Origin: Chryseobacterium gregarium DSM 19109
GTDB lineage: Bacteria; Bacteroidota; Bacteroidia; Flavobacteriales; Weeksellaceae
DNA: 64,000 nt
Direction: 5' to 3'
Assembly: GCF_000430845.1 (NCBI RefSeq)
Contig: NZ_AUMU01000006.1
Span: forward strand, 168,124 to 232,123
This document shows, piece after piece, positions 14,414 through 39,328 of the stretch; the stretch's first letter is position 1; each line of letters starts with the position of its first letter. Under the pieces are notes generated by a model. It worked only from the letters and a program-made list of their open reading frames with translations, was not told the origin of the DNA and did no database searches. Both the position numbers and the translations under genes were made by a program.

Positions 14414-15103
14414 TTATTTTTTATAGTAAACACGACCATCTTTATCTATTTTCTTCGGAAAAAAGTCTCTAAGATCCATCTCATAAACAATGGGATTACA
14501 TTTTTTATTCTTATTATCAGTTGTACTTATCTTAGAAATATTACTTAAAATATCATCTATATTCTCATTAATAATATTGTCATTTATATCTATTTCTACT
14601 CCATTACAACGATTTTTATTACTTTGTATTTTAATACCTGAAGTATATATTTCACTTTTAGGTGGTGGTAAAGGCATATAATAATACTTCATTAAATATT
14701 CATAATTAAAATCTTTATCAACAATAATCATTGAAGGAATAAACATATATTTGTCATGAGAACCTGTAAATAAGTTAATATTATACACTGATTTTTTATC
14801 ATGTTCTATACTTTGTTTAAAAAGAGTAAGTATTCCTTTATTATATTTTTTAGAAAAAAATATTAGATTTACTAAGTCAATATTTCTTAAATTTTTATCA
14901 AAGTCAAAACTTTTTCTGTCTAAAATATAAAATACGTTATAATCTTTATTTTCAAATATTTTGATAATATTTCGTTTTTCAGTATTTAAATTAACCGAAA
15001 TTTTTTTATTTTCTATGTCTGCCATTTTCATCTGAGAAAAGACATGCATATTAAAAGCTAAAGCTATTAAGAATATTATTTTATTTAATTGTTTTGACTC
15101 CAT
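14414..15103 (-). CDS. Secreted immunity-like protein, tandem copy 1 (cognate candidate)
   Basis: The 229-residue protein begins MESKQLNKIIFLIALAFNM with a Sec signal peptide ending near VFSQ. Its start lies 23 bp inside the 3' end of the Rhs toxin gene, the classic toxin-immunity overlap, so it is the best candidate for the cognate immunity gene. The body is beta-rich with ILDRKSFDFDKNLRN, FFSKKYNKGILTLF and a polar C-terminus. Copies 2 and 3 lie just downstream. Export implies that the cognate toxin is met outside the cytoplasm. Confidence 0.75.
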   Translation of the reverse strand: MESKQLNKIIFLIALAFNMHVFSQMKMADIENKKISVNLNTEKRNIIKIFENKDYNVFYILDRKSFDFDKNLRNIDLVNLIFFSKKYNKGILTLFKQSIEHDKKSVYNINLFTGSHDKYMFIPSMIIVDKDFNYEYLMKYYYMPLPPPKSEIYTSGIKIQSNKNRCNGVEIDINDNIINENIDDILSNISKISTTDNKNKKCNPIVYEMDLRDFFPKKIDKDGRVYYKK

Positions 15104-23748: not shown

Positions 23749-23782
23749 CAAAGATAGTGCTCTTAAACGACAGAACGTGTCG
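23749..23782 (-). promoter_or_regulatory. Operon A promoter and palindromic operator
   Basis: On the minus strand a TATCTTTG element (23756-23749; Bacteroidota -7 consensus TAnnTTTG) lies about 180 bp before the T9SS protein start. Eleven bases upstream is ACGACA-GAACG-TGTCGT (23767-23783), covering the expected -33 region. The same arrangement with the same 11-bp gap precedes operon B. This is the strongest regulatory signal in the window. Confidence 0.7.
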
Positions 23783-23971
23783 TATTTTATCTTTACCTGC
23801 AAAAAACCGGATCCGGCTTAGTATAGTATCACGGCCCGTAATTTATAAGATTACTTTTTGACTCTAATTTTGGCTGTACCCGGCATCTGCACCGGCCCTT
23901 ATTTATCATGGGCCCTACAGCAGGCAAAGATATGAAAATATATCTTTTTAACAATATTTGATTGATTTTTT

Positions 23972-23985
23972 AACAATATATTGTT
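23972..23985. promoter_or_regulatory. 14-bp perfect palindrome in intergenic gap
   Basis: AACAATATATTGTT is a perfect palindrome. A related AT-rich stretch (AACAAT..TTGATTGATTTT) occurs on the same strand at about 34449. The gap 23790-24735 otherwise has no gene I can support. Confidence 0.25.
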
Positions 23986-24735
23986 GTATTTTGGTCTTTT
24001 AGTATACTACAGCGGCTTAACGGGGATTTGCCAAAACAGTTTCCTGTACTCATATGGAAAAGAAATGGTGAAGGTTCAGCAGGAGAGGGCCTTGTAGAAT
24101 ATTTCAATATCGGGTATATTACTTTAGAAGCGGGTCAGGATTAGGGTGAGTTGTGAAACCTTATTAAAAAACTTCCATCGTCTGTTTTAACCCGGTTCCA
24201 TGGCCAGCCCGGATAACGGATTCATTTTCATGCTGCCCGAAGCTTCGGGACCGTTCAGCCCACCTTCTCTTTTATACACGGGCTTCTTCTGTACCCGTCA
24301 ATCCTGGTGAATGAATGGGACAGATGTGATCCTGCATCAGGGTCACGCTGCCGGGTGGCTGCAGCCTGTTGGATTAAGCAGGGAGCTGCTGACAGGACAG
24401 GCGGCGGCAATTCCGGAGGGTGCTCTGACGGCTGCTTCCCTTATCTGTATTTATAAAGGGCCGGGCCGGCAGGGGAGAGGCCTTTACATCGCTTACCCTG
24501 CCGGGTTTTAAAAGGGTAATATCCGGATACGGAACTGAGCTGCAGCATCAAGGGACATATTGTCATCCGGGGCAGTACGGAGCGGCTTACCTTTAATCCC
24601 TGTCAGGCAGGGGAACAGCCGGGGTATAAAAAAAATGACGGACTGAATAATAATTCACCAAGTGTTGACGTTTAAATACAAAAACATAACGCTTATGGGG
24701 ACAGGATTATTATTTTAATTAATAACCGTAACACG

Positions 24736-24999
24736 ATGAAAACAGAATTCAACACGCCGTTCTCCGAAGAAGAAGAACCGTTTAAAGGCAAGCTCCTGGT
24801 TTTCCTTTCCGAAATTCTCAAAACCCTCGACCAAAAACAGCCTTACGGCGCCGGGTACTATGACAGTGCCGACGTCAAGCAGCTGCTGAACATCAGCGAC
24901 CGGACCCTCCACCGGCTCAGGAAGTCAAACGCCATTCCCTATACCAAAATCGGGAAGAAGATATTTTACCCCAAATCCTTCTTTCACGGCGAGCCCTGA
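24736..24999 (+). CDS. Helix-turn-helix (excisionase/MerR-like) protein
   Basis: The 87-residue protein has an acidic N-terminal helix and a C-terminal HTH_17-type domain: SADVKQLLNISDRTLHRLRKSNAIPYTKIGKKIFYPKS, as in small excisionase-like DNA-binding proteins of Bacteroidota. It probably binds DNA as an accessory factor of a mobile or accessory locus. The stop lies within the first copy of a 28-bp tandem duplication. Base composition is higher in GC than the surrounding gap. Confidence 0.75.
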   Translation: MKTEFNTPFSEEEEPFKGKLLVFLSEILKTLDQKQPYGAGYYDSADVKQLLNISDRTLHRLRKSNAIPYTKIGKKIFYPKSFFHGEP

Positions 25000-25050
25000 C
25001 CGGATCCCGTTCCGTCCGGAAGCCTGACCGGATCCCGTTCCGTCCGGAAG
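24995..25050. repeat. Perfect 28-bp tandem duplication
   Basis: The unit beginning cctgaccggatcccgttccg occurs exactly twice back to back (24995-25022, 25023-25050), and the terminator arm then begins with the same cctg. The first copy contains the stop codon of the HTH gene. It is probably a recent slippage or recombination duplication. Confidence 0.8.
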
Positions 25051-25083
25051 CCTGGCCGGGCTTTGTCCCGGCCAGGCTTTCCC
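25049..25083 (+). terminator. Strong hairpin terminator after HTH gene
   Basis: AAGCCTGGCCGGG pairs perfectly with CCCGGCCAGGCTT around a CTTTGT loop, followed by ttcccc. It separates the HTH gene from the DUF1016 gene. Confidence 0.6.
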
Positions 25084-25158
25084 CGGTAAACCTTTTTTTC
25101 ATTAAGTGTAAACAGCGTATCCCTGCAGAAGGGGCACATAAATTTATGATCCTTAACC

Positions 25159-26178
25159 ATGTTTCTCAACCCGTCAGTCATATCAGATATCAGAGCCATC
25201 ATTGCGCGGGCCCGGGAGCGGGCGTCCCGGGCGGCAGACCACCAGCGGACACTGATGTACTGGGAAATCGGCCGGCGCATCTTCGAGGAAGAGCAGCAGC
25301 GGAAAGAGCGGGCGTCCTACGGGAAGTACCTGACGCAGCTGATTGCCCGGGAGCTGGAACCCGAATTCGGCAGCAGCTTTTCGAGGCGGCAGGTCGAGCT
25401 GTTCCGCCAGTTCTACCGTGCTTTCCCGATTTCGAACGCACTGCGTTCGCAATTGAGCTGGACCCAGTACCGGCTCCTGATGCGCCTGGGTACCGAAGCG
25501 CAGAAGGCCTTCTATATGGCCGAAGCCATCAAGAACAACTGGACGTCCCGGCAGCTGGAACGCCAGGTATACAGCAACCTGTACGAACGCCTGTTGCTGG
25601 GCAGTGACCCAGAAAACGTGCTGGCGGTTGCCCGGAACGAGAAGCAGCCGGCCGGTGCCCGGGAAATCATCAAGGACCCGATGTTCCTGGAGTTCCTCGG
25701 CCTGAAACGGGAAGCGGCCTATTACGAAAAAGACCTGGAGCAGGCCATCATCACCCATCTCCAGGAGTTCCTGCTGGAACTCGGCAACGGCTTCTCCTTT
25801 GTGGCCCGGCAGAAAAGGATCCATATCGGAGGGGATGACTTCTTTGCAGACCTGGTGCTGTACAACCGGCTGCTGCAGAGCTTTGTCATCATTGAGATCA
25901 AGACCCATGCGCTGACCCATCAGGATATCGGCCAGCTGCAGATGTATGTGAATTACTATGACCGGGTGGAAAAGCTGCCCCGCGAAAACCCGACTGTCGG
26001 GATCCTGCTGTGTGCCGATAAAAATGATGCCGTCGTACAATTCACGCTCCCCGAAGGCCAACAGCAGATCATCGCCAGCCAGTACCGGCTGTACCTGCCT
26101 ACCGAAAAGCAGCTGCTGGATGAAGTCAGCCGGGAACTGGGGAATTATGATGAGAATGCCCGCCCTGATGATTGCTAA
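25159..26178 (+). CDS. DUF1016 / YhcG-type PDDEXK nuclease family protein
   Basis: A 339-residue protein with the two-part DUF1016 architecture. An N-terminal helical region (about 1-165: TLMYWEIGRRIFEEE, FSRRQVELFRQFY, LSWTQYRLLMRL) precedes a C-terminal PDDEXK domain (about 175-320). The catalytic signature is DDFFADLVLYNRLLQSFVIIEIK (Asp near 236, E-x-K near 252). Family members are putative nucleases linked to restriction-like or mobile loci. The gene is much richer in GC than its surroundings, suggesting separate ancestry. No methylase or helicase partner is nearby. Confidence 0.9.
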   Translation: MFLNPSVISDIRAIIARARERASRAADHQRTLMYWEIGRRIFEEEQQRKERASYGKYLTQLIARELEPEFGSSFSRRQVELFRQFYRAFPISNALRSQLSWTQYRLLMRLGTEAQKAFYMAEAIKNNWTSRQLERQVYSNLYERLLLGSDPENVLAVARNEKQPAGAREIIKDPMFLEFLGLKREAAYYEKDLEQAIITHLQEFLLELGNGFSFVARQKRIHIGGDDFFADLVLYNRLLQSFVIIEIKTHALTHQDIGQLQMYVNYYDRVEKLPRENPTVGILLCADKNDAVVQFTLPEGQQQIIASQYRLYLPTEKQLLDEVSRELGNYDENARPDDC

Positions 26179-26689
26179 ACAAACGGCTGGCATTTTCCTT
26201 TATAGCCGGGCAGTTCGTTTATCCGGTACAAAGAAACTGTTATCAGGGCTTTGTAATAAAGCAGTTTTTGAATATTCACCTTCACTATTTCCGGCTGCAT
26301 GATCCCGTTCACGGCATCGGATATTCCTCAGCGACGGGTAGCCTGTCCTTAAGGACTACCTTTTCTCTCAGTCTGTCTTACTGTATGTATGCTCAAAAGA
26401 TTTTTACTATTGTGCCTATGCTTTTATGTACGGCCTGCCGTTATTTATCTGCATGAAGGGAAATAATATGGAGAGTTAACGTATTTAATATTAGTGTTTT
26501 ATGGGTATTTTTATACTTTATGATGCTGATCATAGGACCGGTTTTGAGTATTTTATTAGCTTTGACCAGGCCCATAACCATCTGGGTATGAACTGCTGAT
26601 GATAGCAGCTTTACCGCCATAGGATAAAATTAAATCATCCCGTGACCGGAATAATCAATCGGGATAAGAATCTGAATAAATAATAGACT

Positions 26690-27208
26690 ATGCAATTCAA
26701 TAAGGCACTTCTGGAAGAAATCAGCGAAAATTTCATGGGCTGCCATGAGACGATTTCAATCGCTGAGAGCGTAACGGCGGGGATGCTGCAGCTGGCATTT
26801 TCGGAAATGAGCAATTCAAAATTGTTTTATAAGGGCGGGATAACCGTGCATACTCCTGACCGGATTGTAAAACTGCTTAAAGTGGATGCCGCGGAAATCA
26901 GCAGCCATGGGCTATCGGGCATTATAACCGATACTATGGGCTGCCATGCATCGAAGACTTTTGACAGCGAGTGGTGTATTGCCACTTCGGGCTACTGCAT
27001 GCCCGAAAGGCAATCTGCTTACGGCATTTATGCCTATTACTCCATTTCATATAAGGGGACTACGGTTTTTTCAGATAAGCTGGATTTTGACGGCAAAAAG
27101 GATTCCCTGCTCGTCAAATCCTATTATACGGAGCAGATTCTGCAGAAATTCCTCGGGCAGCTGAAGCTGTACCATATCCTTAAAACCGAGATCGCCGGAG
27201 AGGACTGA
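26690..27208 (+). CDS. CinA-family protein (amidohydrolase domain only)
   Basis: A 172-residue protein equivalent to the C-terminal CinA/PncC domain: ETISIAESVTAGMLQLAFSEM, LFYKGGITVHTP and a later WCIATSGYCMPE (equivalent to the VTGxAGP loop). PncC converts nicotinamide mononucleotide to nicotinate mononucleotide. The usual G-P loop residues are altered (SGYCMPE), so enzymatic activity is uncertain. The 26179-26689 gap upstream has no gene I can support. Confidence 0.75.
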   Translation: MQFNKALLEEISENFMGCHETISIAESVTAGMLQLAFSEMSNSKLFYKGGITVHTPDRIVKLLKVDAAEISSHGLSGIITDTMGCHASKTFDSEWCIATSGYCMPERQSAYGIYAYYSISYKGTTVFSDKLDFDGKKDSLLVKSYYTEQILQKFLGQLKLYHILKTEIAGED

Positions 27209-27272
27209 TCCGTTCCCGGACTGTCGGTTTATGTTAATACAGATATATAACGATAATAATTTCGATAGTAAT

Positions 27273-27740
27273 ATGAGATTTTTTTTGCTGGGCTTTTTAC
27301 TGTTTTTCAGTTTAGGGATGTCTCAGGAACTGTATGTTTTCCGGATCCCCGAGATAGCAAAACATAAATTTGAAGATCTGGATCAGATCATGGTTTCACA
27401 ATATGGGTTCGAAAGGGTACCGGATATTGAAGAACCGGATCAGAGGGTTTATAAAAACAAAAGTGATGAAGCCGGTGACCTTATGGTGATTACCGTGATC
27501 AGAAATGCCGAAAGCTGCTCCAATGCAGTCAGCATCGTTGACGGATCGGCTGCCCGTACGGCAAAATTAAGAAATGAACTGCCGGCTCTCGGCTACAGGT
27601 ATGCCGGCAAAAAGAAGATGCCGGACAGCGGGGTGCCGGTATCCCTTTTTGTCGGGGAACACACCACCGTTTCCATAACGGACCGGATAACCGGCACCGG
27701 GGCTTACCAGGTTGTGCTGACCTGTAAACAGGCACCTTAA
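27273..27740 (+). CDS. Small secreted protein of unknown function
   Basis: Read from the ATG at 27273, giving 155 residues that begin with a clear Sec signal (MRFFLLGFLLFFSLGMSQ). The in-frame Met at 27231 would bury this signal and is unlikely. The mature domain has two Cys and a DSGVPVSLFVGEHTTVSI segment; no family is recognised. It follows the CinA-like gene after about 65 bp. Confidence 0.65.
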   Translation: MRFFLLGFLLFFSLGMSQELYVFRIPEIAKHKFEDLDQIMVSQYGFERVPDIEEPDQRVYKNKSDEAGDLMVITVIRNAESCSNAVSIVDGSAARTAKLRNELPALGYRYAGKKKMPDSGVPVSLFVGEHTTVSITDRITGTGAYQVVLTCKQAP

Positions 27741-27823
27741 ATGAATGAAGCGATATGACTGCATAAAGACAGATCGGAAATCCTTATCCTGTCATATCCG
27801 TACCGATCCTGCCATGGCCCAAA

Positions 27824-27840
27824 GTTGTGACGGTCACAAC
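27824..27840. promoter_or_regulatory. 17-bp perfect palindrome (operator candidate)
   Basis: GTTGTGAC-G-GTCACAAC is a perfect inverted repeat. It resembles a CRP/FNR-type half-site pair (TGTGA / TCACA), but with three rather than six bases between. It lies 84 bp after the secreted-protein gene and ~500 bp before the kinase gene. No supported gene starts at it. The short open frame at 27870-28070 is not convincing. Confidence 0.35.
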
Positions 27841-28235
27841 AGAAAAAGACCCAAAATAAATTAGCATGCATGCAAAAAATTAATTTAAACCAGACGCTTA
27901 AGATCCGGAGCCAAAAAAAAGGCAGGCCGAAGAGGGTTCCGGGATATACAAGATTTCGGGCTTTTCTACGGATTTATCATTCCGGAGATGCTGCATGTCC
28001 TGAAGCCGGGCTTAGCGAAGCAGGCAGAGAACCGGCAGCTTCTGACCATGGCTGCAAGGAAGACATCTAAGGGGTGTGTTCCCGGTACATCAACAGCCGG
28101 GCTTATCCCGGTGAATAAATAAGGAAGCCCTCCGGATGCCGATGCCCGGGCTGAACAGGGGGGATCGAAGCCCGGGCGGATACGAAATGATAAGGGGACC
28201 TGCGTTATTTCATACGGAGTTATAAAAATTCTTTT

Positions 28236-28243
28236 TACCTTTG
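28236..28243 (+). promoter_or_regulatory. -7 promoter element for the histidine kinase
   Basis: TACCTTTG matches the Bacteroidota -7 consensus TAnnTTTG and lies 107 bp before the kinase start in an otherwise empty gap. Confidence 0.5.
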
Positions 28244-28349
28244 CCCGTAGTTCTTAAGTACGGAAAATAATAAAAATATCAATACACCCTCTCTGTTCTG
28301 AAATTCCACATTTTCCTTGATCATCATTTAATAATCCTCTCTGTAGTAT

Positions 28350-30629
28350 ATGGATAGATTTTTTTCAGCGCCGGGAAGCGATATCTGGGTTGAAATACTC
28401 AGGCAGTCCTGCACCGCCACTGCCGTTTATACCGGCCCCGATCTTAAAATCCGGCTCGTTAATGAAGCGATGCTGGCCCTGTGGGGGAAGGATCCGTCGG
28501 TACATGGCAAAACATTCGGAGAAGCACTTCCGGAGATGGAAGGCCGGCCGATTACGGACCTTCTGAAAAAGGCATGGGCAACGGGTAAAACATACGCAGC
28601 CCATGATATGCCTGCCATTTTGGAAATCAACGGCCGAAGGATGACTTCTTATTTTGATTTTACCTGTCAGCCGGTGTTCAGCAGCGAAGGGGAAGTGTCC
28701 TGCGTCCTCCATACGGCCACTGAGGTAACGGAAAGGGTGGAAGCCCGGAGGCGGGCCCCGGAAAAAGAAGGGCGCGAGCAGCAGATCCATGAGGCCGGGA
28801 AGCTGCTGGAAAACAGCGAGCTGCTCCTTCAGGAATCCAATGAAGAGCTTACGGTGCTGAACGAGAAACTGCAGACCACCAACGAAGAGCTCGGGACCCT
28901 CAATGAAGAATACAGCACGATCAATGAAGAGCTTGAGGAGGCCAACCGGAAGATCTCGCTTCTCAATGCCCGGCTGAAGGAAGAAAACCACGGCCTGGTA
29001 TCAGACGGCAAAGGTTTTCAGGACAGCCTTGCCCGGCTGGACGGGTCCAATAAAATACTGGAAGACAGGAATAAGGAACTCAGGGCGCTCAATGATACCA
29101 TCATAGAGCTTAACGGGAAACTTTCCGAAAGCCAGGCCGGTTTCACCAACCTCATTGCCCAGGCCCCGGTGGCCATGATGCTGGTGAAAGGAGAAGATTT
29201 CATTGTGACGATGATCAACAGGAAGATGCTGGAACTGATCGGGAAGGAGGCGGACATTATCGGGAAACCGTTATTTGAAGAGCTCCCTGAACTGAAAGGG
29301 CAGAAGGCAGCCGAGGTGCTGATCCGTACCTTCAGGGAGGGGGAATCCGTATCCGACTATTCAAAACCGGTCATGCTGAACCGGAACGGGAGCCTGGAAG
29401 AAGGCTTTTTCAATTTCTCCTATACCCCTTACCTCGAAAACGGCCGGGTTACCGGGGTAATCGATATGGCCGTGGAAGTGACCCCGCAGGTCCTCGCTAT
29501 CCAGGACCGGGACCGGACGATTATTGAAAAAACCAAGCTCGAGGAAACCTTAAGGAACAGTGAGCAGCGGCTTCACGGCATCCTTGAGACCATGGCTGAA
29601 GGGGTAGGCGTTACCGATGAAAACGGGCGGATGATCTATGCCAACCCGATGGCCCAGCAGATTCTGGGGCTGAGTGAAAGCAGGATCAGGGAAAGGACGT
29701 ATGACGATCCCCAATGGCAGAACCTGAGGCTGGACGGGACGCCTCTTCCGTCGGAAGAACATCCGATGTCCATCATGATGCGGACAGGCAAGCCGGTATA
29801 TGATTGTGAGATCGCGGTTCAGCCTCCTGACGGGGACCGTTTTTACATTTCCATCAACGCAGCGCCCATCCTGGACCCTGAAGGCCGGCTGACCGGCGGG
29901 ATCGGGACGTTTATGGACGTAACGTCGAGAAGGATGGTCATGCAGGGCAAAGATGATTTTATCAGCATTGCCAGCCATGAACTTAAGACCCCAGTGACCG
30001 CCCTGAAGGCTTCACTGCAGCTTTTGCAAAGGTCAAATGACCAGCTGCCGGCCGAATCCCGCACCAGGCTTCTGGACCGGTCCGTGAAAAGCCTGGACAA
30101 GCTTTCAGGCCTGATCATGGACCTCCTGGATACGGGGCGGATTGAGCAGGGGCAGCTGAAAATTGAAAAGGAAACAGTGGTGCTCTCCGGGCTGTTTAAG
30201 GATTGCTGCGCGGATCTCATGGATCAGACCGGCCGGGAAATCATTTTTACCGGGGACGCGTCACAGATTATAGAAGCGGACAGCCGGCAGATCGGGCAGG
30301 TGATGGTGAATTTTATCAACAACGCGGTGAAATATGCGCCGGGCCCTGAGCCGATTACAGTGAATGTGGGCAGGCCCAATGATGACGAAATAAAAATAAG
30401 CGTTATTGACCATGGCCCGGGGATCGCGGCCGATCAGATCAAGCACCTCTTCAAGCGGTATTACAGGACCGACCACCAGGGCCGGAAGTTCGCCGGGCTG
30501 GGGCTGGGGCTGTATATCAGTGCAGAAATCATCAAAAACCACGGCGGGAAAATCGGGGTGGAAAGCAATACCGGCAAAGGGAGCGAGTTCTGGTTCACGC
30601 TGCCTGCCGTAAACACCGCAAGCCGTTAA
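28350..30629 (+). CDS. Soluble multi-PAS sensor histidine kinase
   Basis: A 759-residue kinase without membrane segments. PAS-1 occupies about residues 15-125. A long coiled coil (~130-265) with N-E-E-L/L-N-E repeats follows, then PAS-2 (~268-390) and PAS-3 (~398-530). The HisKA box DDFISIASHELKTPVTAL (phospho-His about residue 542) precedes the ATPase domain: N box FINNAVKYAP, G1 DHGPGIA, G2 GLGLGLYIS. The absence of a transmembrane helix points to cytoplasmic sensing (redox, light or ligand). The response regulator about 230 bp downstream is the likely partner. Confidence 0.9.
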   Translation: MDRFFSAPGSDIWVEILRQSCTATAVYTGPDLKIRLVNEAMLALWGKDPSVHGKTFGEALPEMEGRPITDLLKKAWATGKTYAAHDMPAILEINGRRMTSYFDFTCQPVFSSEGEVSCVLHTATEVTERVEARRRAPEKEGREQQIHEAGKLLENSELLLQESNEELTVLNEKLQTTNEELGTLNEEYSTINEELEEANRKISLLNARLKEENHGLVSDGKGFQDSLARLDGSNKILEDRNKELRALNDTIIELNGKLSESQAGFTNLIAQAPVAMMLVKGEDFIVTMINRKMLELIGKEADIIGKPLFEELPELKGQKAAEVLIRTFREGESVSDYSKPVMLNRNGSLEEGFFNFSYTPYLENGRVTGVIDMAVEVTPQVLAIQDRDRTIIEKTKLEETLRNSEQRLHGILETMAEGVGVTDENGRMIYANPMAQQILGLSESRIRERTYDDPQWQNLRLDGTPLPSEEHPMSIMMRTGKPVYDCEIAVQPPDGDRFYISINAAPILDPEGRLTGGIGTFMDVTSRRMVMQGKDDFISIASHELKTPVTALKASLQLLQRSNDQLPAESRTRLLDRSVKSLDKLSGLIMDLLDTGRIEQGQLKIEKETVVLSGLFKDCCADLMDQTGREIIFTGDASQIIEADSRQIGQVMVNFINNAVKYAPGPEPITVNVGRPNDDEIKISVIDHGPGIAADQIKHLFKRYYRTDHQGRKFAGLGLGLYISAEIIKNHGGKIGVESNTGKGSEFWFTLPAVNTASR

Positions 30630-30859
30630 GCGCGGTTACATATCAGCCTTGAAATTTTTTGAAACTTTTTACTGTATTGGCCTTTCAGGCTCAGCCTGCT
30701 GAAAGACCCCGGAAATCTGCATGGTCATTGCCCTCTGCGGAAACTGGCTGATTTACAATGGGAACCATGGAGGAAGAATTCAATAGAGATGCATTCAGGA
30801 TCATTTAACCCATCTTCGGGACCGGAGGCGGTCTGGTGCAATTATTGATGGACCAAAGC

Positions 30860-31216
30860 ATGAGAAAGATTTTTTTAGTGGAAGACAATGAAGCGATCAG
30901 AGAAATTCTGGAAATATTTCTGACCTCTGAAAATTACGAGGTAAAGTCTTTTGCCACCGCAGGGGCATTTGCAGGACGGGATGTCCGTGAGACCCCTGAT
31001 CTCTACCTGTTCGACGTCATGCTTCCCGACGGATCCGGGATCGATCTGTGCCAGCAGATCAAAGAGGACAAGCAGAACGGGAATATTCCCGTCATTATCA
31101 TGAGTGCGCATGCCGGCCTGGTCCATCTGGAACACCTGTGCGAGCCGGATGACTTTATTTCCAAGCCGTTCGATATCGATAATGTATTGACAAGGATCCG
31201 GATTCTTCTTAATTGA
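30860..31216 (+). CDS. Single-domain response regulator
   Basis: Starting at the ATG at 30860 (MRKIFLVEDNE), the protein is a 118-residue receiver domain with nothing after it. The acidic pocket is ED near the start, the phospho-acceptor Asp is in LYLFDVMLPDGSG, a conserved Ser is in IIMSAH and a Lys in FISKPF. An earlier in-frame Met (30836) is less likely. Lacking an output domain, it would act by protein contact or in a phosphorelay with the upstream PAS kinase. Confidence 0.85.
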   Translation: MRKIFLVEDNEAIREILEIFLTSENYEVKSFATAGAFAGRDVRETPDLYLFDVMLPDGSGIDLCQQIKEDKQNGNIPVIIMSAHAGLVHLEHLCEPDDFISKPFDIDNVLTRIRILLN

Positions 31217-31563
31217 GCGCTGCCAATGCGACCGGCAGAAGATATTATTTCCTGTTTTTAATCTTCAGTCCTTTTTCCCCATCCTTCTTTAACTCCCGGC
31301 AGAAGTCCCCGCCTGCAGCCCGCCGGCTTATTCTTTCCGCTGCCCGTACACGGGATTCCGGGTAAAATTATCCCTGTTTTCCTTTCATTCTTTCATCATA
31401 TCCATCATTTCCGTACACCTTCCGACGGCAGTTTTGCCCGGAATGGTTCACCGCATTCCCTTACTGGCATCATCAGCCCTGTCATAAACTTCGCCGGTGC
31501 CGTCCTCTGGCACTAAAATAGTATACCTTAAGTATATCCGTCAAGAAACAGAAACAGCAGCAT

Positions 31564-31809
31564 ATGAATTTCAGAAAGATCAGCATCAGGCATGCCTCAG
31601 GCGTACACACCCTGGAGGTCAGGGCCAAAAAATTTGACAAGGTGTGCCGGAAGGTCACCGGCATTGTAAAAGGCAGGAAAGACAAACCCTTCAGGCATAC
31701 CTCGCGGGACGGCAGCCTGCAGCTCTTCCCCGCAGAACTGCTGCGGCAGAGCGTGATCACCTTCGAGCCGCAGAAAGAGGGCTCAGGCCTGATCCAGCAG
31801 TCCATGTGA
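31564..31809 (+). CDS. Small basic hypothetical protein
   Basis: An 81-residue protein, rich in Lys and Arg in its middle (RAKKFDKVCRKVTGIVKGRKDK), with no signal peptide or known motif. The frame has a plausible AG-rich leader. Function not recognised. The 31217-31563 gap before it contains nothing I can identify. Confidence 0.45.
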   Translation: MNFRKISIRHASGVHTLEVRAKKFDKVCRKVTGIVKGRKDKPFRHTSRDGSLQLFPAELLRQSVITFEPQKEGSGLIQQSM

Positions 31810-31917
31810 TTTCAGGACTGCACAAGATTACAACAGCCCCGGTAAGGGGTTGTTTTTATTTTGGCCTTACCTTACTTCCTTCGGGATCCCGGCATTCAAA
31901 ACCTTGGATTGATGGAA

Positions 31918-32070
31918 CGTCACTTCGAGTAGCGCAGCGAAGCGGAGTGTATCGAGAAGCTTTTTATTAATACCTGCCTGCGGTTGGGAGTTCACCGGTT
32001 CTCGATACAAAATTCTTTCAGAATTTCACTCGAACGGACGTCAGCAATTCATCGGCCGGCAAAATTAGCT
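31918..32070. repeat. 153-bp dispersed repeat, copy 1
   Basis: Begins CGTCACTTCGAGTAGCGCAG and ends AAAATTAGCT. It is almost identical and equal in length to 32776-32928. The inner part contains inverted pieces (tcgagtg/cactcga types: 'gtatcgagaa' against 'ttctcgatac'), so it can fold. Open frames over it are spurious. Confidence 0.75.
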
Positions 32071-32091
32071 ATTTGTCCCCAACTGACCATT

Positions 32092-32238
32092 AAACTTTTA
32101 GCGTCAAGCCCATTGAAAAGCAAGGGCCACCAAAAAAAGTTTTATGTCCGAAGCGCGGCTACATAATTAAAATGAAAACAAACACACCATCCGCGCAAGT
32201 TTAAACTTTTCAGCGCGGGCTCAATGGGCAGCGTTAAG
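32092..32238. repeat. MITE-like element, copy 1
   Basis: Starts AAACTTTTAGCGTCAAG. The left arm CCCATTGA (32109-32116) pairs with TCAATGGG (32221-32228). It is the first of three related units; the outer right end is truncated (gcgttaag only). Confidence 0.65.
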
Positions 32239-32486
32239 AAATCTCGAAGAGATTCGCCGATTCAGAAATAAAATATAAAATACTGAGGCAAAGTTTTGGG
32301 TCCTGATCTTTTGGTTCTTTTACATCAAGGTAAAATAACAAATAAAAATAAAAAGCCTGTCTAAAAGTTCGGCGACCATTGGAAGAAACATGGTTTAAAA
32401 AAGTTTGATAAAAAATTCATACAAAGAAATGAAAGAATCCTGTGTTTGAATAAACGACTTGAGTTACTAAAATACCCGATGACCTT

Positions 32487-32640
32487 AAACTTTTAGCGTT
32501 AAGCAAATTGAAAAGCAAGGGCCACCAAGAAAAGTTTTCTGTTCGAAGCGTGAGACAAATGTTGAATCGAAGCAGAAATATCGTATTCACGCAAGTTTTA
32601 AACTTTTCAGCGCCGGCTCAATTTGTAGCGTAAAAGTTTT
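32487..32640. repeat. MITE-like element, copy 2 (compensatory arm change)
   Basis: Same architecture as copies 1 and 3, but the left arm is CAAATTGA (32504-32511) and the right arm TCAATTTG (32618-32625). Both arms changed together and remain paired. Terminal inverted repeats are AAACTTTTA... and ...TAAAAGTTT. Confidence 0.7.
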
Positions 32641-32775
32641 AAGTCTTGATCTTTTGGTTCTTTTGCATCAAGGTAAAAGAACAAATAAAAATAAGCTCAA
32701 TATAAAATACCGCAACTATTAAAAAATACCAACTTACCGATACCATTTTCGTAAAAAACATTTGAACTGGCAAGC

Positions 32776-32928
32776 CGTCACTTCGAGTAACGTAGCGAAG
32801 CGGAGTGTATCGAGAAGCTTTTTATTAATACCTGCCTGCGGTTGGGAGTTCAACGGTTCTCGATACAAAATTCTTTCAGAATTTCACTCGAACGGACGTC
32901 AGCAATTCATCGACCGGCAAAATTAGCT
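32776..32928. repeat. 153-bp dispersed repeat, copy 2
   Basis: Near-identical to 31918-32070 in the same orientation and at the same distance (about 20 bp) from the following MITE-like unit, so the two repeats have probably been duplicated together. Confidence 0.75.
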
Positions 32929-32949
32929 GGTTGGACCTATATGACCATT

Positions 32950-33100
32950 AAACTTTTAGCGTTAAGCCCATTGAAAAGCAAGGGCCACAGAAAAAAGTTT
33001 TATGTCCGAAGCGCGGCGGTAATAGTGATCAACAGAATTACAGTGAATCCGCGCAAGTTTAAACTTTTCAGCGCCGGCTCAATGGGTAGCGTAAAAGTTT
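32950..33100. repeat. MITE-like element, copy 3
   Basis: Left arm CCCATTGA (32967-32974), right arm TCAATGGG (33079-33086), outer ends AAACTTTTAGCG and GCGTAAAAGTTT. After each of the three copies a shared tail (TCTTGATCTTTTGGTTCTTT) follows. Confidence 0.7.
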
Positions 33101-33415
33101 TGGGGTCTTGATCTTTTGGTTCTTTTGCATCAAGGCAAAAGAACAAATAAAAAAATAAAAGCAAAATTGAACAACAGTAAGCAAACACCAGTTTATAATT
33201 TTCCGCAGATGAGGCAAATGATGCCGGTTTTTATAGACATCTCACCACCAGCGACCCACAATTTCAAACGGTATAAACCCCAACATTCATGCAGTAAAAA
33301 TCCCTTTCGATTTTATCCAAAAAACAGGATACTACCCATTGCGAAATATTCAAATAAAAGCATAAAAAATTAATAAATTATAAATATACCGCCGGAAAGG
33401 CCCATAAAACCAGAT

Positions 33416-33514
33416 ATTCTTCGACCCTTCTTCGACTGTTCTTCGGGAGTTCTTCGGAAAAACCCCCTGTTTTCCGAAGCCGACCCGAAGAAGACCCGAA
33501 GCGGACCCGAAGAA
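33416..33514. repeat. TTCTTCG / CGAAG inverted short-repeat cluster
   Basis: Four TTCTTCG-type words on the left half face four CCGAAG-type words on the right half, so the ~100 bp can fold back on itself. Just beyond it GCCAAAAC occurs three times (33541, 33551, 33570). It lies upstream of the DUF6266 gene; no open frame is convincing. Confidence 0.55.
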
Positions 33515-33647
33515 ATGCCGGATGATACCGGTCATTGGCTGCCAAAACCTGCCAAAACCGGACACAAGCTGCCAAAACTTTCCGGGGCCATTGAAAATTG
33601 AAAAACCCGTGATACCTTCGTTCCGTTAACCCCAAAAAACCAACACC

Positions 33648-34289
33648 ATGGCAAGAATCACAAAAGGGATCCTGGGAGGGTTCTCAGGAAAAGTAGGAAC
33701 GGTAGTGGGCGCCAACTGGCGCGGACAGGACATCATCCGGAGCACGCCCAAACGCAGCGGCCGCAAGGCCACCGGGAAGCAGCTGCTCCAGCAGGTGAAG
33801 TTCAGGCTGGTAACCGGATTTCTCCAGCCGCTGAAAACGATCCAGACGAAGTATTTCGGTTCGGCGAGCGGTTCGAAATCCAGGGTAAACCTGGCGGTCT
33901 CGTACACGATCAGCGAGGCGGTGCAGGTAACGGGCGAAGTCCCGGAACTGGTATACAGCAAGGTGCTGATCACCAGAGGCGACCTGTCGGGCTTCCAGAA
34001 CATCACGGCGACCCCGCAGACCGGCAATGTCATCAGGCTGGCATGGCAGGACAATTCCGTGCAGGGCAATGCTTCAGCCACAGACAAGGCGAATGCCGTC
34101 TGCTACAGCGAAGCCTCGGGCACGTTTGAAATCTTTGAATCGGTGGCGGAGAGGACAGGCTTAACGGCGGATATCACGCTGCCGGACGGGTATGACGGGC
34201 AGGAGGTCCAGCTTTGGGTGTATTTCACCAACACCGAAGAGACCTCGGCATCCAACAGTTCATACCTCGGAGCCGTGACCCTGATTTAA
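33648..34289 (+). CDS. DUF6266 family protein
   Basis: The 213-residue protein starts MARITKGILGGFSGKVGTVV, followed by GANWRGQDIIRS and KRSGRKATGKQLLQQVKF. This N-terminal pattern is typical of DUF6266, a Bacteroidota family of unknown function. The second half is beta-rich with TGNVIRLAWQDNS and VQLWVYFTN, resembling an Ig-like domain. There is no signal peptide. GC content is higher than in the intergenic DNA around it. Confidence 0.75.
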   Translation: MARITKGILGGFSGKVGTVVGANWRGQDIIRSTPKRSGRKATGKQLLQQVKFRLVTGFLQPLKTIQTKYFGSASGSKSRVNLAVSYTISEAVQVTGEVPELVYSKVLITRGDLSGFQNITATPQTGNVIRLAWQDNSVQGNASATDKANAVCYSEASGTFEIFESVAERTGLTADITLPDGYDGQEVQLWVYFTNTEETSASNSSYLGAVTLI

Positions 34290-34310
34290 CAGGCCTGCTG
34301 ATTGAATTTG

Positions 34311-34341
34311 ATCTCCACCTTAACGGGTGGGGATTTTTTTG
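34311..34341 (+). terminator. Terminator after DUF6266 gene
   Basis: ATCTCCACC pairs with GGTGGGGAT across TTAACG and is followed by a run of T. It is positioned 22 bp after the stop. Confidence 0.7.
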
Positions 34342-34646
34342 TGCTTCCGGGTTCAATGGTCCGGTGGATGAACAGAGCCGAAGCCCATTTGAAGTTATAG
34401 ATAAGTAAGGGCGCATTGTTTAGAGTACACTTTTTTATTAAGTAGAATAAACAATCATTGATTGATTTTATTACAATTTATTATTGTTTAATTAATAAAT
34501 AATGATAAATTTGCTCTTTCTTGTTCATATACAGTAAGCCGGTGATGCATTTATCCTTGACTCATTGGTAGAATATAATGGGTAAAAGGATCTGCTTATT
34601 ATATTTTTCAAAAAGCGGGTGCCGTTTTATGATTAAAAATAAAACA

Positions 34647-34680
34647 CGACACATTCTGTCGCTGTGCAGCATTATCTTTG
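34647..34680 (+). promoter_or_regulatory. Operon B promoter and palindromic operator
   Basis: CGACA-CATTC-TGTCG (34647-34661) lies 11 bp before TATCTTTG (34673-34680), 146 bp ahead of the T9SS protein start. Sequence and spacing match the operon A promoter, including flanking ATAAAA and AGCA words, while the rest of the two leaders has diverged. Confidence 0.7.
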
Positions 34681-36457: not shown

Positions 36458-39328
36458 ATGAGAAACCTTAAAATACTATTGATTATACTAACATGGGCTA
36501 TTTCCATACATATTTCTGCACAGCAGCAGCCCATATCCGGTATCAACTTCGGAGATGCACCAAGGCCCGTACCTTCAGTTTCCTCCTTGGTGACCTATAC
36601 AGATGCGCCGGTATCCCTGGCTACCGGCGTTCCCGATATTAATTTCCCTTTGTTAGCATTGTCTTCCAGGGATAAAAATATTGCGGCCAATCTGTCATTA
36701 CAATATCACCCGTTAAACATGGATGCAACCGAAGCAGGAAGCGAGGTCGGGATCGGCTGGTCAATGTTCGCGGGGGGCATAATATCAAGAGAGGTCGTAG
36801 ATGAACTGGATGAAAGATATGATGATGCAGGCTTTGTAGGCTACAAGAAGAATAAATTTAATGATATCTATTATTACAATTTACCCGGCATCTCCGGAAA
36901 ATTCAAAATTGAAAGGAATACAGATGCCAATACTTTCCGGGTCGTAAACCTTACTCCCAACAATATCAGGATCGAATATACCCGAAACAGCAATACGGCT
37001 ACTCTGATTGCGGATTCGTTTACGATAATTGATGACAGCGGATATCAGTATATCTTTAACGAATACAGCCAGGCCCGGAATTATACCCATCCGCTTTTAT
37101 CCGGGACCTTATTTAAATCTGCTTTTTATCTAACCCGGATTAAAAATGCCAATAATCTGGAACTGTTAAGTTTTATTTATCAGAAGGATAACAAAAACAA
37201 ACCCGGGACCAGCGAGGTGCTCTATCAATCGTGTAAATTGAAAACGATTTCATCTCCGGGTATGGGTTCCGTTGTTATGGATTATCTTTATGATGCTTCT
37301 CTGGAAGGGACTATGAATGATCCTTACAGCATTACCAAAGTTTCTCTTAAAAATAATAATGCAGGAGTCATTTCACAATATGGCTTTGAATATGCGATTC
37401 AGGTTGAAAATAAGAGAACATTAACCAGAATCAATAAGATCAATTTATCTAACCCAACAGGCACTCCGCTGGAAACTACAAAACTTCTCTATACAGATTA
37501 TTATTTTAATAGCGGTTTGGGAGGTGACAGAACCTGTTCAGCCAATCCTGTAAATCCCAATGATATTCCTGTTGCCACGCTCTACCGGGTTATACTGCCA
37601 ACAGGGGGCATGGTAGAGTATAATTTTGAAGGAAATCAGTATTACGCCAATAAAAATACGCCGGATTATGTAACGCCTGGAGCTTTTTCAGATCCTGAAG
37701 TCCAGTTTATCCAGTCTTTTGCAGGCGTGGATTTTGACGTTCCTAACGGCCAAACGAAAACATATACCTTCCAGGTACCCGGAGAACCGAATAAATCTAA
37801 GCCCATATATGTTGATTTTCAAGCAACGAAATACTATCCTCTATACGGGCTTGCTGAGCCTTATTCCAATGTCGATTATGTAATAGATAATGATCCCGGT
37901 CTCACCAATACCTGCTACATTTTCAATGATGAAGCTTTAGAAGGCAATGCATGGTCATTTAAAATATTATATTTAAATCCGGGCGCCCATTCACTAAAAA
38001 TATATGGTACCGGAGGGCATGGAACCGTAGGATTCTCCCATATAGCAAGTATACCCACTCCTTATAGGAATGCGGTAAGCAATGATAAAAAATCAGGAAT
38101 CCGTATACAAAATATTAAATACTATAATTCTGCCTTGGATTTTATAGCTAAAAAAACAGTCGCCTATGATTACAATGTCTTCAGTGATCCCAACAGTTCC
38201 AGCGGTTATGGATTTTATCCTGAAATGGAAAGTATATCATCAGCTTATATTCCGGTAGTTATTTATAAGAACGTAAAAGTGACCAATGATAGTGACAGCG
38301 GATATGTCAATTATTATTTTAAGAACCCCAATGATTATCCGAAGACCCCCTATACTTACAATGGAAATGAAACCAAGTTCTGGCCTTATTATAATTTGAC
38401 CAAATCCGGGGTAATGGATAAAAAAGAAGTGTTCAATGCGCAGGGCCAGCTGGTTTCTGCCGTTGCTTACGATTTCACGTTTGAAACCTTAAACCAGATG
38501 CCGGAAGTTTCTGTTGAGGGGGGAGTTACTAAAAAGGCTTACATTAAAAGCACAAAAGTAACCACCAGGGATTACACCGGGACCGACAGGTTTGTTGAAA
38601 GCAAAGTAGAGACGGAATTTAATCCTGTAAACTTCAAAGCAGCATCAGTTAAGGAAACTTCATCGGACGGCAATATTTCCGAAAAGCTGATTACCTATTC
38701 TGCAGGGTCCCAGGCCTATCAGAATCTTGAAAATGCCTACATGAACGGAGTTCCTGTAAAAACGGAAATTAAAAATAACGGAAAAACGGTAGCCAATACC
38801 CTGGTAAAATACGAAAACCCGGGCAACCTGTACCCGTCTTCGGTAGTAAACATCAACCCTAATGACAACAGTCCTAAAGTTGCCGTTGCCTACGATGATT
38901 ATGACTCCAAAGGAAATGTGAGGCAGTTTACGTCAAACTACAATGCTGCAACGGGGGCCGGGACTTCAAGTGTGATCATCTGGGGATATAACCAGACGTT
39001 CCCGATCGCAAAGATCGAAGGGGCAAAGCTATCCGATATCGGAACCCTGGCAGATGATATAATCCAGAAATCCAATGCAGATGTGGACAGTACTTCAGAA
39101 ACCTCACTGATCAATGCATTGGACAGTTTCAGGACAAATGCCGCTTTAAAGAATTTCATAATTACAACCTATACCTATGATCCTTTGGTGGGGGCCACCA
39201 CGGTAACACCTCCGACCGGATTAAGGGAAATCTATAAATATGACAAGAACGGAAGGCTGAGTTCTGTTGCAGACGTCAACGGGAACATCATCAAGGATTT
39301 CAAATACAATACAAAACCACAGCAATAA
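36458..39328 (+). CDS. Secreted Rhs/SpvB-like large protein (operon B, gene 2)
   Basis: A 956-residue protein with a Sec signal (ILLIILTWAISIHISAQQ), then TDAPVSLATGVPDINFPL and AGSEVGIGWSMFAGGIISRE, equivalent to the GLGWSL block of SpvB/TcB-like proteins. YD-like repeats and a C-terminal TYTYDPLVGATTVTPPTGL follow. Clearly paralogous to the 925-residue protein of operon A but far more diverged than the two T9SS genes. No toxin tip. The stop lies 23 bp before the Rhs toxin gene. Confidence 0.75.
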   Translation: MRNLKILLIILTWAISIHISAQQQPISGINFGDAPRPVPSVSSLVTYTDAPVSLATGVPDINFPLLALSSRDKNIAANLSLQYHPLNMDATEAGSEVGIGWSMFAGGIISREVVDELDERYDDAGFVGYKKNKFNDIYYYNLPGISGKFKIERNTDANTFRVVNLTPNNIRIEYTRNSNTATLIADSFTIIDDSGYQYIFNEYSQARNYTHPLLSGTLFKSAFYLTRIKNANNLELLSFIYQKDNKNKPGTSEVLYQSCKLKTISSPGMGSVVMDYLYDASLEGTMNDPYSITKVSLKNNNAGVISQYGFEYAIQVENKRTLTRINKINLSNPTGTPLETTKLLYTDYYFNSGLGGDRTCSANPVNPNDIPVATLYRVILPTGGMVEYNFEGNQYYANKNTPDYVTPGAFSDPEVQFIQSFAGVDFDVPNGQTKTYTFQVPGEPNKSKPIYVDFQATKYYPLYGLAEPYSNVDYVIDNDPGLTNTCYIFNDEALEGNAWSFKILYLNPGAHSLKIYGTGGHGTVGFSHIASIPTPYRNAVSNDKKSGIRIQNIKYYNSALDFIAKKTVAYDYNVFSDPNSSSGYGFYPEMESISSAYIPVVIYKNVKVTNDSDSGYVNYYFKNPNDYPKTPYTYNGNETKFWPYYNLTKSGVMDKKEVFNAQGQLVSAVAYDFTFETLNQMPEVSVEGGVTKKAYIKSTKVTTRDYTGTDRFVESKVETEFNPVNFKAASVKETSSDGNISEKLITYSAGSQAYQNLENAYMNGVPVKTEIKNNGKTVANTLVKYENPGNLYPSSVVNINPNDNSPKVAVAYDDYDSKGNVRQFTSNYNAATGAGTSSVIIWGYNQTFPIAKIEGAKLSDIGTLADDIIQKSNADVDSTSETSLINALDSFRTNAALKNFIITTYTYDPLVGATTVTPPTGLREIYKYDKNGRLSSVADVNGNIIKDFKYNTKPQQ

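Follow-up and report, generated by a model that had tools for sequence, protein, structure and literature searches.

The WYL-domain proteins DriD and PafBC are transcriptional activators triggered by single-stranded DNA. DriD of Caulobacter recognizes the target ATACGAC(X)7GTCGTAT, and the probe oligonucleotide used for it, ATACGACAGTAACTGTCGTAT, is exactly CGACA-N5-TGTCG. DriD sites overlap the -35 region at a constant distance from the -10 element, and the promoters concerned have poor core elements (PMC12340889). The PafBC motif is TGTCGG-N10-TA-N3-T (PMC8151990) and its site has been termed the "-26 motif" (PMC11804915). Here we describe a palindrome of the same kind, CGACA-N5-TGTCG, in front of two operons for Rhs proteins (A and B) in Chryseobacterium gregarium DSM 19109. 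The window, that is, the whole stretch analyzed, comprises 64,000 nucleotides of contig NZ_AUMU01000006.1. The two palindromes, called boxes A and B below, belong to a genus-wide Chryseobacterium set of about 20 sites, apparently read by one WYL-family activator.

The original prediction placed CGACA-N5-TGTCG exactly 11 bp before TATCTTTG at both operons, and the coordinates of the two boxes agree with this (Table 1). The words ATAAAA (upstream) and AGCA (in the spacer) also lie at equal offsets at both boxes, and no third copy is present in the window, even when one mismatch is allowed. Taken by itself, the palindrome stands out only slightly from chance in 64 kb, as at least two copies with at most one mismatch arose in 14 of 100 shuffles. 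As predicted, the remainder of the two leaders differs. Outside the box, leaders A and B align at the random level (identity 0.45-0.49, baseline 0.44), compared with 0.79 in the box region. Because of this, and because the box precedes unrelated genes, we rejected the idea that Rhs duplication spread the box by copying one promoter. With the -7 consensus of PMC6847099, in which the T of TAnnTTTG lies at -12, transcription is predicted to start at about 23744 (minus strand) for operon A and about 34685 (plus strand) for operon B.

We then examined the whole C. gregarium genome (G000, 42 contigs), taking genes outside the window as simple open reading frames. Its 4.44 Mb hold 13 copies of the palindrome, compared with 2 of a reversed control. 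In 11 of these 13 copies, the distance from the palindrome to the start of TAnnnTTG is exactly 11 bp (P ~1e-26, from background word frequency); a twelfth has CA in place of TA, and other nearby spacings are unused. The full pattern CGNCR-N5-TGTCG-N11-TAnnTTTG has 17 perfect copies and about six near-copies in this genome, always promoter-oriented, and its reversed control gave one match in total across 246 genomes of the order. The consensus from 81 different sites is CG(A/t)CA-nGTTY-TGTCG-Y-N10-TAnnTTTG; the box is therefore a dyad whose promoter-side arm is more conserved. Beyond the earlier description, the N5 (nGTTY) and the base after the palindrome (C/T) are also constrained. Placing the palindrome over the -33 region was sound: the data support a predicted binding site for a protein, joined to a promoter at a constant distance. 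The genes behind the boxes are diverse, yet their spacing never varies, and the case named in the original prediction as a refutation, unrelated genes with randomly spaced motifs, therefore does not hold. The view of the box as a shared operator of two Rhs operons holds in that the site is common to both, but it is too narrow, since about 20 dispersed promoters carry the site. A phylum-wide regulon was not found, with matches in 7 of 296 genomes (six of the same genus and one isolated single match). Outside the family the box is sporadic.

One boxed gene on contig C19 encodes a 306-aa WYL-domain protein. The genome has three WYL genes; the other two, on other contigs, have no box. In 80 of 80 Chryseobacterium orthologues of the C19 regulator (88-96% identical), a box lies 50-120 bp before the start codon, and its distance to the core promoter element is constant in all 80 promoters. 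Box presence also tracks the orthologue. Within the order sample, box and orthologue are both found in 22 of 23 genomes of the genus, and the exception, G237, has neither the orthologue nor a perfect box. In the family, boxes occur in 26 of 26 genomes with an orthologue (at least 60% identity) vs 2 of 13 without (Fisher 5e-8, a value that ignores shared ancestry), and both of these two carry a 34-38% identical homologue. Four distant genomes (G114, G168, G169 and G178) have an isolated box immediately in front of a WYL gene that is 37-41% identical, and in G105, G243 and G007 a box lies within ~0.1-3.5 kb of a more diverged WYL gene. Across the whole identity range of 37-96%, the putative recognition-helix residues S46, R48, T49, R52 and D53 do not change. 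G187, which has no orthologue, has two Rhs leader genes and no box at either. Because the box stands in the own promoter of all 80 orthologues examined and its presence tracks the orthologue, the C19 WYL protein is, from sequence comparison, the likely reader of the box.

The regulator matches the WYL domain PF13280 (E 4e-13) and the WCX domain PF25583 (E 2e-7). Its AlphaFold2 model has a winged helix-turn-helix N-terminus (residues 1-80, predicted local distance difference test (pLDDT) mostly 70-94) and aligns full length with DriD and PafBC. Among solved structures, the nearest sequence is PafBC, a WYL-WCX protein (E 1e-5). The fold matches are DriD (Z 15-16), BrxR (13), PafBC (12) and CapW (11-12), with BrxR and CapW together spanning 10.5-13. 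The LexA DNA-binding domain (PF01726) was not found in the C. gregarium genome, the one genome searched for it.

The targets answer the question of where the box lies relative to Rhs genes and genes of the type IX secretion system (T9SS). It precedes all six copies of the Rhs operon with a 540-aa T9SS leader gene, namely the two in the window and those at C2:433814, C6:171633, C15:30808 and C15:103891, but several non-Rhs targets carry it as well. An Rhs-only operator was rejected because the box precedes many such genes. Contig C11 has a five-promoter boxed cluster encoding an endolysin-like M15 peptidase, a patatin-like phospholipase, a DUF2589 protein and large proteins; the corresponding boxed M15/patatin cluster lies next to the WYL gene in G005 and G019. 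Two boxed promoters on C14 precede large proteins, one with DUF6603, and C31 has one boxed promoter. The family search gave no useful match for the large C11 and C14 proteins (1248, 2289, 1050 and 729 aa). Another boxed operon encodes SspB (DUF4007), SspC and SspD, which make up a phage-defence system linked to phosphorothioate. The WYL gene itself has no defence system next to it in G000, G005 or G019. On C15 a box precedes an AlkB-like 2-oxoglutarate-Fe(II) oxygenase gene, with an intervening short gene that resembles the 88-aa proteins at the C1 boxes. Other boxed genes, with no function assigned, lie on C1, C6 and C7.

Some further observations concern these loci. The word CTTCAGAA / TTTCAGAA / ATTCAGAA recurs right after TAnnTTTG in several boxed promoters (L047, L051, L053, L054 and L055); at the expected transcription start, it is possibly an initial-transcript or mRNA-stability element. 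Contig C11 also has a DnaE2-like/DinB-like cassette with a divergent XRE-type regulator, possibly LexA-like (L053:697-5751), whose promoter palindrome is TTGTATCA..TGATACAA. This gene may encode a distinct second stress regulator next to the boxed cluster. On the 54-kb viral contig IMGVR_UViG_3300018914_000003, small genes, of which some are regulator-like, are preceded by two perfect boxes (L220:13613-13646 and L228:7866-7899), and L218, L221, L223 and L229 have one box each. Phages may be wired to the host WYL regulator.

Table 1. Coordinates of the boxes, promoter elements and genes. Plain numbers are positions in the window; C denotes contigs of the C. gregarium genome.
Feature	Position	Strand	Sequence	Remark
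WYL box A	23768-23782	minus	CGACACGTTCTGTCG	Operator site upstream of Rhs operon A
-7 promoter element, operon A	23749-23756	minus	TATCTTTG	11 bp after box A
WYL box B	34647-34661	plus	CGACACATTCTGTCG	Operator site upstream of Rhs operon B
-7 promoter element, operon B	34673-34680	plus	TATCTTTG	11 bp after box B
WYL regulator gene, 306 aa	C19, 55612-56529	minus		Winged helix-turn-helix, WYL and WCX; outside the window
Operon A leader gene, 540 aa	21945-23567	minus		T9SS C-terminal sorting domain expected (paralogue of operon B PF18962 protein)
Operon A RHS-repeat protein, 925 aa	19159-21936	minus
Operon A DUF6443/RHS protein, 1229 aa	15081-18770	minus		Main Rhs toxin-type protein
Operon A 229-aa gene after Rhs protein	14414-15103	minus		No Pfam match
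Operon B leader gene, 540 aa	34826-36448	plus		Por_Secre_tail (T9SS sorting) domain, PF18962
Operon B 956-aa protein	36458-39328	plus		Weak RHS-repeat match
Operon B DUF6443 Rhs protein, 1286 aa	39352-43212	plus		C-terminal CdiA-CT RNase A-type toxin domain, PF18431
Conserved multi-promoter cluster	L053:6033-14536 (C11) and L055:518-16132			Nearly all transcription units boxed; includes proteins of 1248-2289 aa
Two near-identical short genes, 88-90 aa	L044:8154-8420 and L044:17714-17986 (C1)		MKLKA-IIREEVQVNAKSI...	Directly behind boxes C1:13106 and C1:22666

The original prediction left open whether a bound protein would block or recruit RNA polymerase; recruitment is the better supported, as the site has the geometry of the DriD and PafBC activators and weak -7 elements are common among the boxed promoters. 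With the T of the -7 element at -12, the box is centred at about -31 and its TGTCG arm covers -28 to -24, which is the place of the PafBC "-26 motif"; the PafBC motif has the same 11-bp geometry. The didA promoter printed in PMC12340889 (CGTCCGTTTCTGGCG-CATGGCTCGGC-CAAGGT), in our own reading, has the GTTYTGKCGC arm and the 11-bp spacing in common with the Chryseobacterium sites. The third base of TAnnTTTG is G in 19 of the 81 boxed sites, and G at this position is "virtually zero" among F. johnsoniae promoters (PMC6847099). Many boxed core promoters therefore look weak, which suggests that they would need help. We consider it probable, by analogy with DriD and PafBC, that a WYL activator responsive to single-stranded DNA recruits RNA polymerase at these promoters with poor cores. 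The palindrome would be the site of a homodimer of the 306-aa protein, which would switch on its own gene and the dispersed promoters, including all six leader-type Rhs operons. Single-stranded DNA from DNA damage or phage attack, a trigger proposed purely by homology, would bind to the WYL domains, whereupon the dimer would clamp the box and keep sigma factor and RNA polymerase on TAnnTTTG.

Several points weigh against this. Joint inheritance of box and regulator inside a single genus does not count as independent evidence; the independent contrasts are the loss in G237 and the autoregulated copies in distant genomes. About 7 of 29 sampled Rhs leader loci in relatives have no recognizable box, the other 22 being boxed with at most two mismatches. 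The regulon is poor in classical DNA repair genes: the AlkB-like gene stands alone and the repair and division-inhibitor content of the DriD type was not found, so the signal may be other than damage. Since the -33 element is generally weak in Flavobacterium promoters (PMC6847099), its absence proves little. The regulator model has a mean pLDDT of 78, and its inter-domain arrangement is uncertain. Finally, WYL proteins of the same fold can be repressors, as are BrxR and CapW.

This last point leads to an alternative in which the same protein reads the same box as a repressor of the BrxR/CapW type, covering the -33 region until a nucleic-acid ligand releases it during phage infection or damage. 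The overlap of the box with the core promoter and the autoregulation are both compatible with repression, BrxR and CapW control defence genes, and one boxed target, the Ssp operon, is a defence operon. Yet about 20 promoters keep, without exception, the 11-bp spacing of the DriD and PafBC activators, which repression does not require; the -7 elements are often weak, and the best sequence and fold matches are activators. On this geometry and these weak cores we favour activation and regard a repressor as unlikely. It is less probable still that another regulator reads the box and that the WYL gene is one more target. The XRE-type protein beside dnaE2/dinB would be one candidate, since its gene adjoins five boxed promoters and the translesion-polymerase cassette. 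However, its divergent promoter has a different palindrome (TTGTATCA/TGATACAA) and no box, which disfavours it; the C11-type cluster of G005 has a umuC-like gene in its place; in distant genomes the WYL gene alone is found next to the box; and the box is the published DriD site. Least credible is that the box is an unusual -35 element of an alternative sigma factor. The fixed spacing to the -7 element and the directional asymmetry of the consensus would fit this, but both arms of the dyad are conserved, whereas sigma sites are not palindromic; moreover, the -7 element is the housekeeping one of Bacteroidota, and the WYL gene tracks the motif.

The activator reading names a candidate regulator, an exact DNA site and about 20 targets, and bears on how Bacteroidota without LexA respond to DNA damage. 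If it is true, toxin secretion, phage defence and a lysis-type gene cluster would all be tied to DNA stress. A wider proposal is that a genus apparently without LexA uses just one WYL activator sensing single-stranded DNA as a substitute SOS master switch. On DNA damage or phage attack, this switch would turn on a "counter-attack" regulon of Rhs toxins with T9SS signals, the endolysin/patatin cluster, Ssp phosphorothioate defence and possibly prophages with a captured box; we hold the chances for and against this proposal to be even. We know of no signal for polymorphic toxin release in Bacteroidota. The literature search, which covered few subscription papers, gave no prior report of a WYL damage or weapons regulon in Bacteroidota, nor of Chryseobacterium SOS/LexA, of Rhs with mitomycin and T9SS, or of SspBCD with WYL. 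A WYL activator with its box is a known kind of system; what is new, as far as these searches show, is its phylum, its promoter context and, most of all, its list of targets. The WYL promoter geometry (TGTCG, 11 bp, TA) suggests a feature common to Actinobacteria, Proteobacteria and Bacteroidota despite different sigma recognition.

LexA is the repressor of SOS-controlled bacteriocins and tailocins. These resemble the present system in outline, since in both the genes for toxins and lysis would be turned on by damage to DNA; they differ in that no LexA DNA-binding domain was found in C. gregarium, a putative activator stands in place of a repressor, and the Rhs proteins bear T9SS sorting signals. 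BrxR and CapW, the WYL repressors of BREX (bacteriophage exclusion) and CBASS (cyclic-oligonucleotide-based anti-phage signalling), share the fold, the link to phage defence and a nucleic-acid-sensing WYL domain. They act locally, as repressors whose genes lie within the defence locus, whereas the Chryseobacterium regulator has a dispersed regulon and activator geometry. The mycobacterial PafBC regulon, which works by sigma adaptation, has the TGTCG arm exactly 11 bp before TAnnnT. However, PafBC is a heterodimer with one arm in its motif and repair genes as targets; Chryseobacterium has one gene and two arms, and the tandem paralogous WYL genes that characterize PafBC are not seen at the C19 locus, which has a single WYL gene. 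The DriD regulon of Caulobacter crescentus, an SOS-independent damage response, has a CGAC-N7-GTCG palindrome centred on the -35 region, a constant distance to the -10 element, weak cores, a box in the regulator's own promoter, a single gene of the homodimer type and the closest fold. It differs in phylum, in the -7 element and in its targets, which are didA, bapE, recJ and dnaG rather than Rhs toxins, an endolysin/patatin cluster and phage defence. The response to single-stranded DNA is known for DriD and is proposed here by analogy. The Chryseobacterium regulator is therefore not DriD, because of its regulon content, and not PafBC, because of its gene number, and it would work like both.
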